From Salinibacterium sp. (GTDB taxonomy: Bacteria > Actinomycetota > Actinomycetes > Actinomycetales > Microbacteriaceae): 64,000 nt of DNA. Where the stretch lies: NCBI GenBank assembly GCA_004297555.1, contig SCSV01000286.1, forward strand, positions 44,178 to 108,177, given 5' to 3'. Both the position numbers and the translations under genes were made by a program. Below the pieces are notes generated by a model. It had not been told where the DNA came from. It ran no database searches and worked only from the letters and a program-made list of their open reading frames with translations. The stretch's first letter is position 1; each line of letters starts with the position of its first letter. Positions 14,576-54,218 of this stretch are shown piece by piece.

Positions 14576-15046
14576 GTGGACGAGCTGCCCAAGTGCCCAG
14601 GTGACGCTCCCCCGGTGGTGCGCCTCTCGCTGCGTCATGAGAAGTGCCCGCGCAAGGGCGTCGTTCGGCACTTGCGCACGCCAAACGACATCCACTCGTA
14701 CTTGAAGACCGAGTACGGATGCGAAGCGCAAGAGTGGGCGGTCGTCATTGGCCTGGGTTCCAACAACGCCATCCTCGGCATTCACGAAGTCGCCATTGGC
14801 GGGCTCGACTCGACGGTCGTAGACCCGCGAGTAGTGTTCGCCGGACTCCTTCTGATGGGCGCTGCAGCGTTTGTCTTCTGTCACAACCATCCAAGCGGCA
14901 GTACACAGCCGAGTACGTTGGACGTCACGATGACTCGCCAGCTCAAGGACGCCGGCAAGATTTTGGGAATCCGCATGGTCGACCACATCATCGTGAGCGG
15001 AACCGGCTACACCTCTTTCCTTGCAGAGGGAATGTTTCCATCGTGA
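14576..15046 (+). CDS. radC-like: RadC-like JAB/JAMM-domain protein
   Basis: A 156-residue protein with a clear RadC/JAMM metal site: HNHPSGS at 103-109 and the following Asp (D116), with LGIHEVAIGG (67-76) upstream supplying the Glu. This is the JAB domain alone; the N-terminal helix-hairpin-helix part of RadC is missing. Mobile elements and phages often carry such short forms. Cellular RadC's role is unsettled. The GTG start lies two bases after the preceding stop, and the end overlaps the transglutaminase-like gene. Confidence 0.85.
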   Translation: MDELPKCPGDAPPVVRLSLRHEKCPRKGVVRHLRTPNDIHSYLKTEYGCEAQEWAVVIGLGSNNAILGIHEVAIGGLDSTVVDPRVVFAGLLLMGAAAFVFCHNHPSGSTQPSTLDVTMTRQLKDAGKILGIRMVDHIIVSGTGYTSFLAEGMFPS

Positions 15047-16779
15047 CCCTCGACCAAGCCATCGCTTTGCTGCTCGGCGCCGGCTTCGGTGCGCGTGCAC
15101 TGGATGGGAGAAAAAACGCTCTCGCCCGCGTCGGTTACGCGCTGGTCGGCTACGACCTGCTCAAGACCGGAATCACCGGCCAGGGTTCCATCTTTGGTGC
15201 GCAGTCGAGCGGACTGGCGAAGGTGTCATCGTCCAGGGCGAAGTTGAAGTTCGAGGAGCGTCGGGTCCGAACCATCGCAGAGCGTGTTGCGTATGTGCAC
15301 GAGCAGATGGTGCTGGGCACCCGCGACCCTCAGGTCTACGCACTCGCTCGAGAAGTTGTCGCGCGAAAGTGCGGTGCAGAGTTCTGCATTCCGGAGAAGG
15401 ACCACAAGGGCGAGATGGCCGCGCTCTTCAACGAAGCTCGAGCCCGTTGCCGATACACGCTCGACCCTGTCGACTACGATGCGTTTCAGACGCCGGGCAA
15501 GACGCTGCAGCTCGCCAGCGGCGACTGCTTCGTGAAGGGCACGGTGGTACTCAAGAAAGGGCACGAGTTGGTACCGGTCGAGTCTCTCCGTCTCGGAGAC
15601 GAAATCTGGGGGCTCAATCGCTGGTCGAAGGTGATGAACACTTGGGAGAAGGGAGTGCTCCCGACGTGGAACATCCAGCTCAACAATGGCTCCGCGATGC
15701 GCTTGACTCCAGACCACAAGGTTTGGGTGTGGAAGTGCAAGGATGAGCACAAGGATGCGCGGTACGGAGGACAAGAGTGTTCGTGTCGCCTTGACAACCG
15801 AGAGTTGGTTCGCATCCGCGTGAGGGAACTTAAGTGTGGCATGGTGTTGCCGCAGCCGGAACGCATCCCGTTCGGTTCCGAAAAGATGGACCCAACTCGC
15901 GCGTACGTTGAGGGGCTCTACGTTTCTGACGGCTCATCGGCACACTCGAATACGTTCGAGATTGCCGGCCAAGACGGTTGTCCAAAAGAGGCGCAGAAGA
16001 AAGAAGTCGAGCGCATCTGCGCGGTGCTCGGAATTCCGACGAGGTGGTATCGGAAGTACATCACGGTGAAAGACAAAATCTGGACGCAGCGGATGAAGAC
16101 GATGGGTACGCGTGCGCCCAACAAGCGCGCCCTTTCCATCAACCTCGAAGAGGGCGGAGCACTCAATTTACTTCGCGGTATCATGGCCGATAGCGGGAAG
16201 AACAGCCAAGGTTTCGGCTCTACCTTCACCACTACTTCTCGCCAGCTTTGGCTTCAGACGCGCGTGCTACTCAAGATGGCTGGCAAAACAGCAAGCGAGC
16301 GCTACATCGTCGACCATGGCGGCCTCGGAGAGAATCCGATTTGGAGGTTGGGCATCCGAGGTGGCGGCCCGGCCGGCAATGCGTCCAAGCTCCTGCGCGT
16401 GAAGGACGTTGTTCGGGACAATGTCGAGAAGCCGTGCTTCGACATCGAGACGGATGACCACTACGTGTGGCTCCCAGAGGCCGACTGGACCACGAGCCAG
16501 TGCGACGATGAAGTGAGCTTGCTTGGCGCGATGCTGCGCAGTGTCGGCATTCCCGTGCGCAGTCGCATCTACCAGACGCAGGGCAACACGACTTGGAACC
16601 ACATCAACCTGATGGCCCAGGACCCAGGTACCGGCACGTGGCACTCTCTCGACCTCGCCGCGGTGGGTAAGCCGCCCGGCTGGGAGGTCCCGAAGCAGTA
16701 CATCATCAAGCAGCGTGACTTCGACGTTCTCGAGAAGGAAGTACCGCGTTTGTCTGCGGCGCTGAATGCGGTACCCTGA
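15043..16779 (+). CDS. Transglutaminase-like protein interrupted by an intein
   Basis: A 578-residue precursor. Residues 1-161 and 487-578 form the host protein. N-terminal hydrophobic helices are followed by a transglutaminase-like core whose catalytic motif is rebuilt only after splicing: ASGD joined to CDDEV. The His (TWNHINL) and Asp (HSLDLAA) partners lie downstream. The family makes or breaks amide bonds (cross-linking or cysteine-peptidase chemistry). In this structural block it could cross-link or process particle proteins. The intein occupies residues 162-486. The GTG start overlaps the RadC stop. Confidence 0.8.
   Translation: MTLDQAIALLLGAGFGARALDGRKNALARVGYALVGYDLLKTGITGQGSIFGAQSSGLAKVSSSRAKLKFEERRVRTIAERVAYVHEQMVLGTRDPQVYALAREVVARKCGAEFCIPEKDHKGEMAALFNEARARCRYTLDPVDYDAFQTPGKTLQLASGDCFVKGTVVLKKGHELVPVESLRLGDEIWGLNRWSKVMNTWEKGVLPTWNIQLNNGSAMRLTPDHKVWVWKCKDEHKDARYGGQECSCRLDNRELVRIRVRELKCGMVLPQPERIPFGSEKMDPTRAYVEGLYVSDGSSAHSNTFEIAGQDGCPKEAQKKEVERICAVLGIPTRWYRKYITVKDKIWTQRMKTMGTRAPNKRALSINLEEGGALNLLRGIMADSGKNSQGFGSTFTTTSRQLWLQTRVLLKMAGKTASERYIVDHGGLGENPIWRLGIRGGGPAGNASKLLRVKDVVRDNVEKPCFDIETDDHYVWLPEADWTTSQCDDEVSLLGAMLRSVGIPVRSRIYQTQGNTTWNHINLMAQDPGTGTWHSLDLAAVGKPPGWEVPKQYIIKQRDFDVLEKEVPRLSAALNAVP
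15526..16500 (+). mobile_element. Intein with LAGLIDADG-type endonuclease in the transglutaminase active site
   Basis: A 325-residue intein beginning CFVKGTVVLKKG, with the block B-like TPDHKVWVW and two dodecapeptide motifs (AYVEGLYVSDGS and LLRGIMADSGKN) of a LAGLIDADG homing endonuclease. The C-terminal splice end is DHYVWLPEADWTTSQ, followed by Cys. The last two residues are Ser-Gln instead of the usual His-Asn. Insertion directly before the catalytic Cys means no active enzyme exists until splicing. Splicing competence of the Ser-Gln end is not certain. Confidence 0.85.
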
Positions 16780-16791
16780 AAGGACCTGCAC

Positions 16792-17289
16792 ATGGCACTC
16801 CTCGACACGAACAATCCACCGGCCGAAGTGCTCGCCGCCAACAGCGAGTTGATGATGGGAGAGGTGCGCAAGTGGCTCAATGACCTTGCGTGCGGCGACT
16901 TGAAAAACACTCCGGCGCTGCTGAACCCGTTGCTGCTGGGGTTGATTGCTCTGCGCCTCGGTCAGCTCGTCAACAACAAGGCGCAGGGGTCCAACTACTA
17001 CCGCATCTCGCCCTTTCAGCTCACCAAGGAGGGTCAGAAAATCGTCGAGCGCCAGCAAGACGGGCTGGTGCGCACTGTTCTGCTGTGGGTCGACAAGGCC
17101 GGCGCCGGCCCCACACCGTACATTCGGGTCGGTGTGAACAAGATGAACATGGTGGCCGGGCAGCAGGGCAGCGGTGGCATCCAGGCGGACGCCGGCAAGC
17201 AGCACGAGCTGGGCAACGTTCGACCTGAGGTGGAGCTGTGGGCGGCTTCCAGCGTCGACATCTGGACGTACGTCATCGAGTACGCGTGA
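16792..17289 (+). CDS. Candidate minor structural protein
   Basis: A 165-residue protein: a helical first half with LLNPLLLGLIALRLGQLVNN, then a beta-rich second half (RTVLLWVDKAGAGPTPYIRV, VELWAASSVDIWTYVIEY). It resembles the beta-rich proteins at 25722 and 26486 in texture but shares no clear motif. The start carries AAAGGACCTGCAC before ATG. A capsid or vertex protein is possible by context. Confidence 0.45.
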   Translation: MALLDTNNPPAEVLAANSELMMGEVRKWLNDLACGDLKNTPALLNPLLLGLIALRLGQLVNNKAQGSNYYRISPFQLTKEGQKIVERQQDGLVRTVLLWVDKAGAGPTPYIRVGVNKMNMVAGQQGSGGIQADAGKQHELGNVRPEVELWAASSVDIWTYVIEYA

Positions 17290-17299
17290 GGAGCCACTG

Positions 17300-19675
17300 A
17301 TGGCCGCGGTCACGAACAACATCGAGTCGCACAATGCGCGGGGCATCGAGCGCTCGGACGTGGTGGTCGACAGTGGAAATCTCCACGGTCTCGGCGCGGC
17401 CGCGGTGAATCAGGCGTCGCTCGCGAAGAGCCACACCATGCTGACGAAGTTCGTCTGGTTCCGCTCGATGCTCGAACGCGAGCTGCAGCTGCAGAGCTAC
17501 AAGCTGGTGAAGGAGGACGGCCTGTACCGGTTCGTCCTCACGCCTGGGCTGCGGAAGGAAGCCGTGCCGTGGCAGCGCTTCGCCGCCGAGCGGTACACGA
17601 AGGCGCTGCTCTGGGGAACGGACAACGCGAAGATGCAGTGCCCCACGTTCGCGATTCCGGCCGGCGGCGTGATGGTCGGCGGCACGTGCCCCGGTGCGGA
17701 CGCCGGTCAGACGGTCACGCCGGTGAACGCCCGCGTGGCGCGTCTCGAAGGCGCTGCAGACGGCTGGCACCTCCGCACCGAAGCACCGGGCACCGGCGTG
17801 AAGCCGCTGGTGAAGGAAGGGCTTGCCGTCTGCCAGAGCTGCGTGACCGCCGATGCGCTCGTTCTCGTCCGCAATCGCGGACTCGTCCCCATTGGAGAGC
17901 TGGTCAACGCCGGCATGGTGGAAGTGTGGAGCGGAAAGTCGTGGCAGAAGACGCATGCCGTGTTCAACGGCGTTCTGCCGACGTTCCTGGTGACACTGTC
18001 CGATGGGCGCACGATTCGCGCAACTGGAGACCACAACTTCATTCTCGCTGACAACTCTCGCGTTCGGGCCGATGAGCTTCAAGAGGGAGAAGCACTCCCG
18101 TGGGAACTTCCGGAGCCCGATGCATCGAACTTCGACGTGACGGGACGGCTGCCGCTCGTTCACCTTGAAGAGCAGCACTTCAACGAGAAGCGAGGCCAGC
18201 TCCCGACACAGTGGTCTCGTGAGTTGGGCCTCTGGCTCGGCTACATCATCGGGGACGGATGGTTCAACGGAAGCGTCAAGCATCCGACCATCGGCATTTG
18301 CGCGGCGGAGCAAGACCGCGGTGACCTCGACCACATCAACGCATTTGTGTCGAGGTGGACAGGTTCGGAAGCCGAGGTGAACGTCAGTGAGGTCGAACGT
18401 TCGAATGACCTCGTCACGTGCGAGACGCCACAGTCGATGGCGAAGGTTTTCTGGCGTCAGAAGTCGGCTGTGGCACTCGCGTTGGGGCTTGGGCTCAAGA
18501 AAGCCAAGGCGGACACGAGAACGCCGGAGTCCATCTGGTCGGCGCCGATGGATGCGGTTTCGGGCTATCTCTCCGGCCTTTTCTCCACTGATGGGAGCGT
18601 CGGCTTTCGAGGGCACGGAGTTGAGATTTCGTTCGCTTCAGTTTCGCGCACGCTCGTCGATGAGGTTCGACAGCTGCTCATCATGTTCGGCATCAAGTCG
18701 AGCTTGACGAAGTACAAGAGCAATGAGGAGCGCGGCTACCTTCCGTTATGGAAGGTCTCGCTGACTTGCCACGAGAGCATCATGCGCTTTCGGAAGCACG
18801 TCGGATTCTTCAATGAGCGCAAGTCGAAAAAGCTGGAAGCGTTCATCATCAGTCCGAAGTTCTCTCACCGTGAGCGCAAGACGAATGCGCACGTCGAGAG
18901 TGTCGTTCCTACCGGTAAACTCGAGCCAGTATTCGACCTCGTCAACGTCGGGCCTGAGCACCAGTTCACAGCCAACGGCATCAGCATTTCAAATTGCTAC
19001 GCGACCGAGGGCTCGTTCAGCCGGTCGAGTGTTCAAACGGATGAACTCGTACGCTTCTGGTGGATTCGCTCGCAGCTGCAGAACAAGAACGAGGCGCTAC
19101 TGGAGCAGGTCTTCGTCGACTCCATTCTCTCGCTGCCGTTCAAGCACGACCGCCACGGCATCAAGCCCATCCGCCTGCACGACTCGGGTGACTTCTTCTC
19201 ACAGAAGTACGCCGAGATGTGGCTGCGCGTTGCTGACGAGCTGGCGGTGCGGATGCCCGAGGTCGTCATCTGGGCTCCGACGCGCACGTGGGCACAGGGC
19301 GGGTGGACGGAGTTCTGGAACCAGCGGCTGCCGCGCTTGAAGAGCGTTCAGTTGGGAAGACGCCCCAACCTGATGGTGCGCCCCAGCGCGTACAACTTCG
19401 GAGACGCCGCGCCGGAAGCGATGGCGCAGGGGAACTCGCGCGGCTCGACGTCCCTCTACGCGGTGCACGCGCGCGTGCCGGCGGAGCTGAAGAACAGGAC
19501 GGACGCCACGAAGGTCGGCCTCACGCGAGGGCTCGAGCCACGCGCCGACTTCAACTGTCAGGTGTACGGAGCGGAGACGGCGTCGTGCACCGCTTCGCTC
19601 GCGCCGGATGGAAAGCGCGGCTGCCGCGCGTGCTGGGTTCACCCTGAGTTGAGGATTAATTATTCTGCTCACTAG
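17300..19675 (+). CDS. GP88-family protein interrupted by an intein
   Basis: A 791-residue precursor. Joining residues 1-180 to 566-791 gives a protein with the pattern of the phage/plasmid 'gene product 88' family: CPGADAG, then CQS-CYATEGSF, then IRLHDSGDFFSQKYAEMW (from 625) and a Cys-rich C-terminus (ASCTASLAPDGKRGCRACW). The role of the family is not known; conserved Cys residues suggest metal or Fe-S binding. The intein sits before a conserved Cys of the CYA motif. ATG chosen at 17300 after GAGGAG. Confidence 0.8.
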   Translation: MAAVTNNIESHNARGIERSDVVVDSGNLHGLGAAAVNQASLAKSHTMLTKFVWFRSMLERELQLQSYKLVKEDGLYRFVLTPGLRKEAVPWQRFAAERYTKALLWGTDNAKMQCPTFAIPAGGVMVGGTCPGADAGQTVTPVNARVARLEGAADGWHLRTEAPGTGVKPLVKEGLAVCQSCVTADALVLVRNRGLVPIGELVNAGMVEVWSGKSWQKTHAVFNGVLPTFLVTLSDGRTIRATGDHNFILADNSRVRADELQEGEALPWELPEPDASNFDVTGRLPLVHLEEQHFNEKRGQLPTQWSRELGLWLGYIIGDGWFNGSVKHPTIGICAAEQDRGDLDHINAFVSRWTGSEAEVNVSEVERSNDLVTCETPQSMAKVFWRQKSAVALALGLGLKKAKADTRTPESIWSAPMDAVSGYLSGLFSTDGSVGFRGHGVEISFASVSRTLVDEVRQLLIMFGIKSSLTKYKSNEERGYLPLWKVSLTCHESIMRFRKHVGFFNERKSKKLEAFIISPKFSHRERKTNAHVESVVPTGKLEPVFDLVNVGPEHQFTANGISISNCYATEGSFSRSSVQTDELVRFWWIRSQLQNKNEALLEQVFVDSILSLPFKHDRHGIKPIRLHDSGDFFSQKYAEMWLRVADELAVRMPEVVIWAPTRTWAQGGWTEFWNQRLPRLKSVQLGRRPNLMVRPSAYNFGDAAPEAMAQGNSRGSTSLYAVHARVPAELKNRTDATKVGLTRGLEPRADFNCQVYGAETASCTASLAPDGKRGCRACWVHPELRINYSAH
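17840..18994 (+). mobile_element. LAGLIDADG intein in the GP88-family gene
   Basis: A 385-residue intein from CVTADALVLVRNRG to HQFTANGISISN, followed by Cys. It has canonical Cys at both junctions and a terminal Asn, with Ser in place of the penultimate His. Block B is DGRTIRATGDHNFIL. The endonuclease has LGLWLGYIIGDGWF and VSGYLSGLFSTDGS. It appears intact and capable of both splicing and homing. Confidence 0.9.
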
Positions 19676-39202: not shown

Positions 39203-39354
39203 GTCGTCTGTCCTCTCTCCACGGTGCCGGCCGACGCAGAGCCCGATGCGCCACCAGCACCACTGCCGTTACTTGCGCGGGCTACATCGACCTGCGCGGG
39301 GTCAGCGCGCGTGCCCGGCCGGGAAGTCTCTGTTGACCGTACTGCGTGTGCTCC

Positions 39355-39446
39355 TGTGGAGCGAGGTGGATTCGAACCACCCCTGGCTTCTTACCCAGAC
39401 AGCCATCGTGCCCATGAGCCTGTCGACCGGCTCGCACGTTCACCCC
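39355..39446 (-). ncRNA. tRNA-like cloverleaf lacking a standard anticodon loop
   Basis: The minus-strand transcript folds as a closed cloverleaf. GGGGTGA (39446-39440) pairs with TCGCTCC (39364-39358), with two G-U pairs. Arm 1 is GTGC-GAGCC ... GGCTC-ATGG-GCAC, closing on GGTCGACA. Arm 2 is TGGCT ... AGCCA with a 12-base loop. Arm 3 is GGTGG-TTCGAAT-CCACC, a canonical T-arm. It ends ACA, not CCA. The anticodon arm does not have a 7-base loop, so it is unlikely to decode. It lies in a 400-base gene-free gap in the leader of the minus-strand operon. The rest of the gap, 39203-39354 and 39447-39572, shows only a possible 15-residue reading frame (MTTQVQVQMKGGSAK). Confidence 0.5.
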
Positions 39447-39572
39447 AGAACCGAGGTACTGATGGCCTGCACACCACCAGCCCCTCGGTGTTTCGCGAAC
39501 AACTACTTCGCGGAACCTCCTTTCATCTGAACCTGAACCTGGGTTGTCATCTCGTGTCCGTCCTCCATCTGC

Positions 39573-39600
39573 ATCATACACACTCACGTTGACGTGTCAA
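39573..39600 (-). promoter_or_regulatory. Promoter with TTGAC-NN-GTCAA operator
   Basis: TTGACA (39600-39595), 16 bases, TATGAT (39578-39573) on the minus strand: the best match to consensus in the window. The -35 lies in a near-perfect 26-base dyad whose arms are ACTCAC and GTGAGT around TTGAC-NN-GTCAA. It reads into the tRNA-like leader and the 39202-34065 operon. Confidence 0.8.
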
Positions 39601-39607
39601 GGTGAGT

Positions 39608-52992: not shown

Positions 52993-53376
52993 ATGGCACG
53001 CAAGACCGTTCGAATCGACTACCCGAAGGTCGCCGCAGCTCATAAGCGCAAGCTCGCGGCGCTCGGGTTCGGCGAACAGCCCAAGCAGCCGCACTACGAA
53101 CAGAAGTCGGGGTTGCCGATGGCGGGCCCTGCCACTCGAACACCGACCGCGAAGCGCAGCATCGCGAAGCTCTTCGTGCTCAACCGCAAGCACGACCACA
53201 CCGGCACCAGCGGCACCGGCATCGTCGCGGAGGGGGTTCGGTTCAGCAACGGCAAGGTCGCACTGCACTGGCTCTCACACCTGGGTGCGGTCAACGTCTA
53301 CGACTCGATGGACGTCTGCGAGGTGCTTCACGGGCACGACGGCAACACGGTGGTGGAGTGGAAGGACGAGAAGTGA
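52993..53376 (+). CDS. Unknown small basic protein
   Basis: A 127-residue protein from ATG at 52993 after CTGGAGGCCC. A basic N-terminus (KTVRIDYPKVAAAHKRKLAA) is followed by a beta-rich domain. It precedes the recombinase with a GTGA overlap and could be a recombination directionality or accessory factor, on position only. Confidence 0.4.
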   Translation: MARKTVRIDYPKVAAAHKRKLAALGFGEQPKQPHYEQKSGLPMAGPATRTPTAKRSIAKLFVLNRKHDHTGTSGTGIVAEGVRFSNGKVALHWLSHLGAVNVYDSMDVCEVLHGHDGNTVVEWKDEK

Positions 53377-54218
53377 ACCCACTCGACGTCGACCGCCTAC
53401 TCGACCCGGTGCTATCCGAACTGAAGGCGACGTCGTCGTGCGAAGCGTACGTCGCCAGTTGGGAGCGCTGGTACCGAGCCGGCGGCCCGGTGACCGTACG
53501 AGGACTCACAGCGCTCGACGTCGCGAAGCTGCGGTCGGTGAGGGACACGCTACTCCGGTCCGAATACGCCCCCGCTACCGTGAAGCGCTGCTTCATCGTC
53601 GCGCACCGGGTGTGGATGAGCCTGACCGAAACGGAAAACAAGGCCGACCCGTTCACGCGCGTGAAGGTCGTTGTCGGCGACAACACGCCACACTGGAACG
53701 TGCTGCAGCCTGGGGAGCTGAAGGTTCTCGCCGACGGTCTGAAGAAAGAGCCCCTCGCGCGCGCGGTGGTTCTCGCGCTCGGGCTCCAGGGCTGGCGGCA
53801 GCACGTGTTGCGCGGGCTGCGCTGGTCAAACGTACGGGAGGATGGCGACGGCTACGTAGTCGAGTACGTCACCAAGCGCGGCAAGCGAGCAGTGAAGCGG
53901 CTGCACCCCGAAGTGATGAAAGCGGTCGAGCAGCTCGGTGGCCCGGTCAGCCCCAACGAGCCGTTCATTGCCGGCAACAAGCGGAAGCCGCTCACCTCGA
54001 ACGACGTCTACCGGCTGGTGACTCGAGCCTGCAAGAATGTACTCGGCCGGCACATCACGCCCCACGGGCTGCGAGCGACGTTCATCACCACGTACATCTC
54101 CCAGAAGAAGAACATCGCGATGGCGGCGCAGCTCGCGGACCAATCGAGCACGAAGACGACTGAGCGGTACCTGCGGTGGACGCTGACGGGAACGAAAGAC
54201 GACGAGGTGAGCCTGTGA
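53373..54218 (+). CDS. Tyrosine recombinase (integrase)
   Basis: A 281-residue protein with GTG at 53373. An N-terminal core-binding helical domain precedes the catalytic domain, which has a first Arg in LQGWRQHVLRGLRWSNV (R142, in an unusual context), HGLRATFITTY (H231/R234) and the nucleophile Tyr in ERYLRWT (Y266). It would integrate or resolve the element at a specific site. No attachment site was recognised in the window. Confidence 0.85.
   Translation: MNPLDVDRLLDPVLSELKATSSCEAYVASWERWYRAGGPVTVRGLTALDVAKLRSVRDTLLRSEYAPATVKRCFIVAHRVWMSLTETENKADPFTRVKVVVGDNTPHWNVLQPGELKVLADGLKKEPLARAVVLALGLQGWRQHVLRGLRWSNVREDGDGYVVEYVTKRGKRAVKRLHPEVMKAVEQLGGPVSPNEPFIAGNKRKPLTSNDVYRLVTRACKNVLGRHITPHGLRATFITTYISQKKNIAMAAQLADQSSTKTTERYLRWTLTGTKDDEVSL

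Follow-up and report, generated by a model that had tools for sequence, protein, structure and literature searches.

How should a 92-nt segment be understood that resembles a tRNA, has no anticodon loop and lies in the leader of a putative phage operon? The segment is found in the window studied here, a stretch of 64,000 nucleotides which spans positions 44178-108177 of a contig of 108,177 bp in a genome bin of 2.25 Mb (93% complete). The first 100 bases of the contig recur as its last 100 bases, and the contig is therefore probably a circular genome; it is phage-like because of its gene set, which includes a HerA/FtsK-type ATPase pair (matching the PHROGs annotation 'terminase large subunit'), a family A DNA polymerase, a UvrD-type helicase and a tyrosine integrase. 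None of the known phages is close to it: no near relative is found in the phage collection, and no close relatives were found in searches with the neighbouring proteins, HerA and UvrD, or in DNA and profile searches. A model of a capsid candidate was uninformative. The window also has a GP88-family gene with an inserted LAGLIDADG intein (17174-19675), and a second protein (15043-16779) appears by eye to bear an intein. The explanation that is tentatively preferred for the segment is that it is a tRNA-family-derived, non-decoding part of the leader RNA, in which the 12-bp acceptor/T-arm helix may function as an RNase P-type handle.

The initial annotation described a closed four-arm fold on the minus strand with a 7-pair acceptor, an extended first arm, a second arm whose 12-nt interior can pair internally and a canonical T-arm followed by ACA, and the sequence and predicted structure of the isolated 92-mer agree with each of these points (Table 1). 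The minimum free energy of the isolated fold is -41.4 kcal/mol (z -2.58), and 4 of 200 shuffled sequences are equally stable. Two of the seven acceptor pairs are G-U pairs, the first arm is built of 5+5 bp, and in the second arm the UCU/AGA stem is enclosed by the UGGCU/AGCCA stem. The T-arm invariants and the 7-bp acceptor of a canonical tRNA are present; where a canonical tRNA has a 5-bp stem with a 7-nt anticodon loop, the element has a 5-nt loop, or a 12-nt interior when the inner stem is unfolded. The 3' terminus is ACA rather than CCA, which counts against a processing handle.

Table 1. Features of the leader and of the tRNA-like element (window coordinates).
Feature	Position	Strand	Remarks
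sigma70-like promoter TTGACA-16-TATGAT	39573..39600	-	11/12 consensus; overlaps palindromic operator TTGACACGTCAA
Candidate 15-aa leader peptide MTTQVQVQMKGGSAK	39503..39550	-	preceded by GGAGG; translation is a possibility only
40-nt hairpin ACCGAGG...CCUCGGU	39450..39489	-	present in MFE and centroid structures
tRNA-like element, 92 nt	39355..39446	-	sequence and isolated fold
Acceptor 5' strand GGGGUGA	39440..39446	-	G3 wobble with U70
Extended first arm, 10 bp	39407..39438	-	4-nt bulge AUGG, 8-nt loop GGUCGACA
Second arm UGGCU-G-UCU-GGGUA-AGA-AGCCA	39384..39405	-	5-nt loop, without a 7-nt anticodon loop
T-arm GGUGG-UUCGAAU-CCACC	39365..39381	-	T54, T55, C56, R57, A58 and G53-C61 all present
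Acceptor 3' strand UCGCUCC, discriminator A73, then CA	39355..39364	-	
Competing hairpin GCUCC-ACA-GGAGC	39350..39362	-	in silico fold; sequesters the acceptor 3' strand
First gene 3' of the leader, 89 aa	38933..39202	-	no PHROGs match

The acceptor end, TCGCTCCA, is nearest to that of tRNA-Ala: 12 of the 22 distinct Ala ends match it at 6 or more of the 8 positions and the other isotypes reach at most 19%, these figures being from a set that excludes loci chosen for GCTCCA, as an earlier set was biased. The alanine identity elements, the G3-U70 pair and A73, are also present. The covariance models and gene finders do not recognize the element. ARAGORN finds zero tRNAs on the contig and calls the element neither a tRNA nor a tmRNA, and at the Rfam gathering score there is no tRNA or tmRNA in the window. 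With relaxed thresholds the best match within the tRNA clan is tRNA-Sec (RF01852), at 23 bits against a cutoff of 47 and with the anticodon arm deleted. The term tRNA-like, without an anticodon loop, therefore holds as a description. The element probably descends from a tRNA or a tmRNA, or mimics one. It is very unlikely that it is a working, aberrant tRNA, either type II-like with a long variable arm or D-armless with the first arm used as the anticodon arm (loop GGUCGACA, with CGA as a possible anticodon). A type II tRNA is indeed the best covariance match, and the hairpin before the T-arm resembles a variable arm and fits the 2-nt spacing before the T-stem; however, the score is far below the gathering score, there is no 7-nt loop, and A73 is unusual for Ser, G being found in 40 of 49 distinct Ser ends (in the biased first set).

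The 2.25-Mb bin has 12 copies of the T-loop core GGTTCGAATCC, one of them on the contig, and the descriptor that combines the T-arm with the 7-bp acceptor closure has a single match in the 108-kb contig, where the expectation by chance is 0.017 per such genome (Markov-1 null); the window is not a random pick, and these rarity figures, like those from the closure nulls below, carry a look-elsewhere penalty. When the T-arm is fixed and the upstream sequence is dinucleotide-shuffled, 12% of the shuffles close 7/7 and 1.9% do so as stably as observed, and with random 100-mers of the same genome these values are 2.5 and 0.5%. From these two nulls it follows that the T-arm is strong evidence and that the closure, being moderately unlikely by chance, is moderate evidence. 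The GGGGUGA strand is the sole upstream 7/7 partner at a tRNA-like distance; the other 7/7 partners within ~600 nt (39869 upstream and 38897 downstream) were rejected as acceptor pieces of a permuted tmRNA, as they are inside called genes. The tRNA similarity of the 5' 64 nt is not beyond chance (11 of 60 shuffles are as good), which also counts against a processing handle.

It is nearly as likely as the preferred explanation that the element is a decayed relic, being what is left, without function, of the 3' part of a phage gene that once encoded tRNA-Ala or a tmRNA, with a coincidental 5' closure. The tRNA-like sequence is confined to the 3' third, no tRNA is called by ARAGORN on the contig, 7/7 closure alone is seen in 12% of the shuffles, and 29 of 121 occurrences of the T-arm are outside ARAGORN genes, most of them without closure (in viral contigs selected for this same T-arm). 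The pervasive presence of tRNA fragments in mobile elements (PMC9897764) is also counted for such a relic. On the other hand, the T-arm and both acceptor strands would have stayed intact while the rest has become unrecognizable, and an equally stable closure is a 0.5-2% coincidence. If the element is a relic, it shows that T-arm fragments persist and can pass for closed cloverleaves. A rather unlikely alternative is that there is no connection with tRNA at all, and that two leader hairpins happen to be followed by a GC-rich hairpin resembling the T-arm consensus. This is in agreement with the loss of the fold in a longer context, with the finding that neither sequence nor model backs a tRNA, and with the selection of the feature by a reader scanning for rarities, but it is at odds with the low descriptor expectation and with the exact T-loop consensus combined with the alanine-type end.

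The predicted loss of the fold is caused by the competing 3' hairpin (Table 1). When 15 nt of 3' flank are added, the acceptor pair probability drops to ~0 and this hairpin wins, which is a further point against the handle, such that the RNase P-type coaxial acceptor/T-arm helix is formed in the isolated element and is outcompeted in longer transcripts. The T-arm is formed in every transcript length that was folded. The loss of the acceptor in this context weakens the tRNA-like case without refuting it, and it is not decisive because 13-23% of the ARAGORN-called tRNAs with short flanks behave in the same way.

The element was placed by the initial annotation in a gap downstream of a strong operator promoter, and this location is confirmed: the gap of 405 nt (39203-39607) has no called gene, and no gene across the element is called by the home-made gene finder. 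A 101-aa frame over the element was rejected as coding, as it begins upstream of the expected transcript start. The TTGACNNGTCAA palindromic operators number five (window positions 39589, 40800, 43488, 45705 and 47564), span 8 kb and are in four of the five cases accompanied by a promoter-like -10. Transcription from the promoter of Table 1 is expected to start near 39566, and the leader would extend for ~360 nt up to the first gene. The distance from promoter to element is ~120 nt, and the 40-nt hairpin ends 3 nt 5' of the element. The folding z of the whole leader region is only -1.67, which is also counted against the handle.

The preferred explanation, that of a processing handle, is based on the consensus T-arm, the rare and stable closure, the Ala-like end, the similarity of this end to the 3' end of a viral tmRNA (in contig L001, see below), the strong promoter and the gap without called genes. 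The intact T-arm, the alanine-type acceptor strand and A73 would form the tRNA-derived 3' third, and the fold would be closed by the remainder, a pair of unrelated hairpins. The 12-bp acceptor/T-arm helix may then be used as a handle by the tRNA enzymes of the host, in the first place RNase P. This mechanism is preferred because hairpins consisting of acceptor, T-stem and T-loop suffice as substrates of RNase P (PMC11143913). We infer that cleavage would occur at 39447/39446, which would part the upstream leader, with its promoter-proximal hairpin and possible peptide, from the downstream message, and the competing 3' hairpin could make this cut folding-dependent. RNase P also processes the phage-derived C4 antisense RNA of P1/P7 (PMC11143913), which is a precedent for its action on a phage-derived non-tRNA RNA; at the level of features, the element differs from C4 by its tRNA-like T-arm and by having no evidence of an antisense target. 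A more elaborate proposal, which is improbable, is that the element is an alanine-accepting, anticodon-less tRNA mimic that switches with the 3' hairpin and couples RNase P cleavage, or capture of AlaRS or SmpB, to early expression.

The suggestion that the element is an attachment remnant is unsupported. For an attP core derived from the 3' end of a host tRNA, a T-arm with acceptor end would be typical, and a tyrosine integrase gene exists in the window (53358-54218). However, this gene is 14 kb away from the element, the 22-mer of the 3' end has no match in ~85,000 genomes, within 2 mismatches the host-phylum sample has only unrelated tRNA-Ala and tRNA-Tyr ends, and the element shares no 15-mer with those tRNA loci that were recovered from the bin. 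In Mycobacterium phage LeMond (L232:501-536), a similar T-arm fragment without an Rfam match precedes the tyrosine integrase gene by ~75 bp, as expected of an attP core. The attP interpretation is largely refuted already, and has the lowest probability of the alternatives.

The closest precedents are the TLD-only tmRNAs, which the element resembles in the features that define their role (no anticodon, alanine-type acceptor). Mycobacteriophage DS6A carries such an RNA, and its expression in E. coli leads to inhibition of tmRNA (PMC4131195, PMC11915505). As with this RNA and the plastid tmRNAs without a CDS, the element is tRNA-like, phage-borne and without an anticodon arm, and its acceptor is of the alanine type where tmRNA is charged with alanine. 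It is possible, albeit unlikely, that the element is a tmRNA-type decoy of the TLD-only kind, an alanine-accepting RNA whose titration of SmpB or AlaRS would inhibit trans-translation of the host; a contact with SmpB is hypothetical. The GGGG start, together with G3-U70, A73 and the missing anticodon arm, would suit such a decoy, the GUCGACAGG loop recalls the UUCGAC motif of tmRNA, and two more TLD-only forms are found in the viral contigs L184 and L208. Nevertheless, even at relaxed thresholds the element has no match to RF00023 (tmRNA) or RF04321 (permuted tmRNA), and the RF00023 matches listed for its own genome do not include it. It also has a strong 10-bp D-side arm, and tmRNA has no D-stem (PMC1168896). 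The element is not classified as a TLD-only tmRNA because it is not matched by the covariance model and carries the D-side arm, the comparison being with these models. An acceptor piece of a permuted tmRNA was also sought downstream of the element and gave no covariance match.

Non-decoding tRNA mimicry, as proposed for the element, is also seen in the tRNA-like module of the bacterial Y RNA YrlA. A Y RNA was rejected, as the bin (93% complete) has no TROVE/Ro60 gene and there is no Rfam Y RNA match. If processing or aminoacylation of the element occurs, a phage message would have a tRNA-like element as a part of its leader, and this would suggest that the anticodon-less tRNA-like RNAs of phages are more varied than the recognized TLD-only tmRNAs.

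When viral contigs were searched by pattern for GGGG and an alanine-type 3' end separated by a distance not typical of tRNA, 37 of them matched. Several of these have tRNA-like RNAs whose anticodon arms are odd but which are nevertheless called tRNA by Rfam. In L047, L204, L209 and L068:3315, the tRNA-like elements have anticodon-arm loops of 5, 28 or 14 nt, or apparently no anticodon arm. The reverse strand of L001, near 11526, has an apparent one-piece tmRNA that is missed by ARAGORN, with a 3' end that is one base off that of the window element. The uncultivated viral contig L184 (5315-5398, minus strand) has an 84-nt tmRNA-like RNA of the TLD-only type, which lacks an mRNA-like domain (RF00023, E 6e-21), and that of L208 (11202-11270) is a weaker, 69-nt form (E 1e-10). 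Permuted tmRNA matches (RF04321, 70-119 bits) are found in L230, L231, L234, L235 and L236, being Bohxovirus, Bordetella PHB04, Xanthomonas X1, PaMx31 and Tunturi_4, respectively. No RNA feature is annotated there in these five deposited genomes, and the RNAs may already be in tmRNA databases. The match in Tunturi_4 adjoins a gene for an RF-1 domain release factor.
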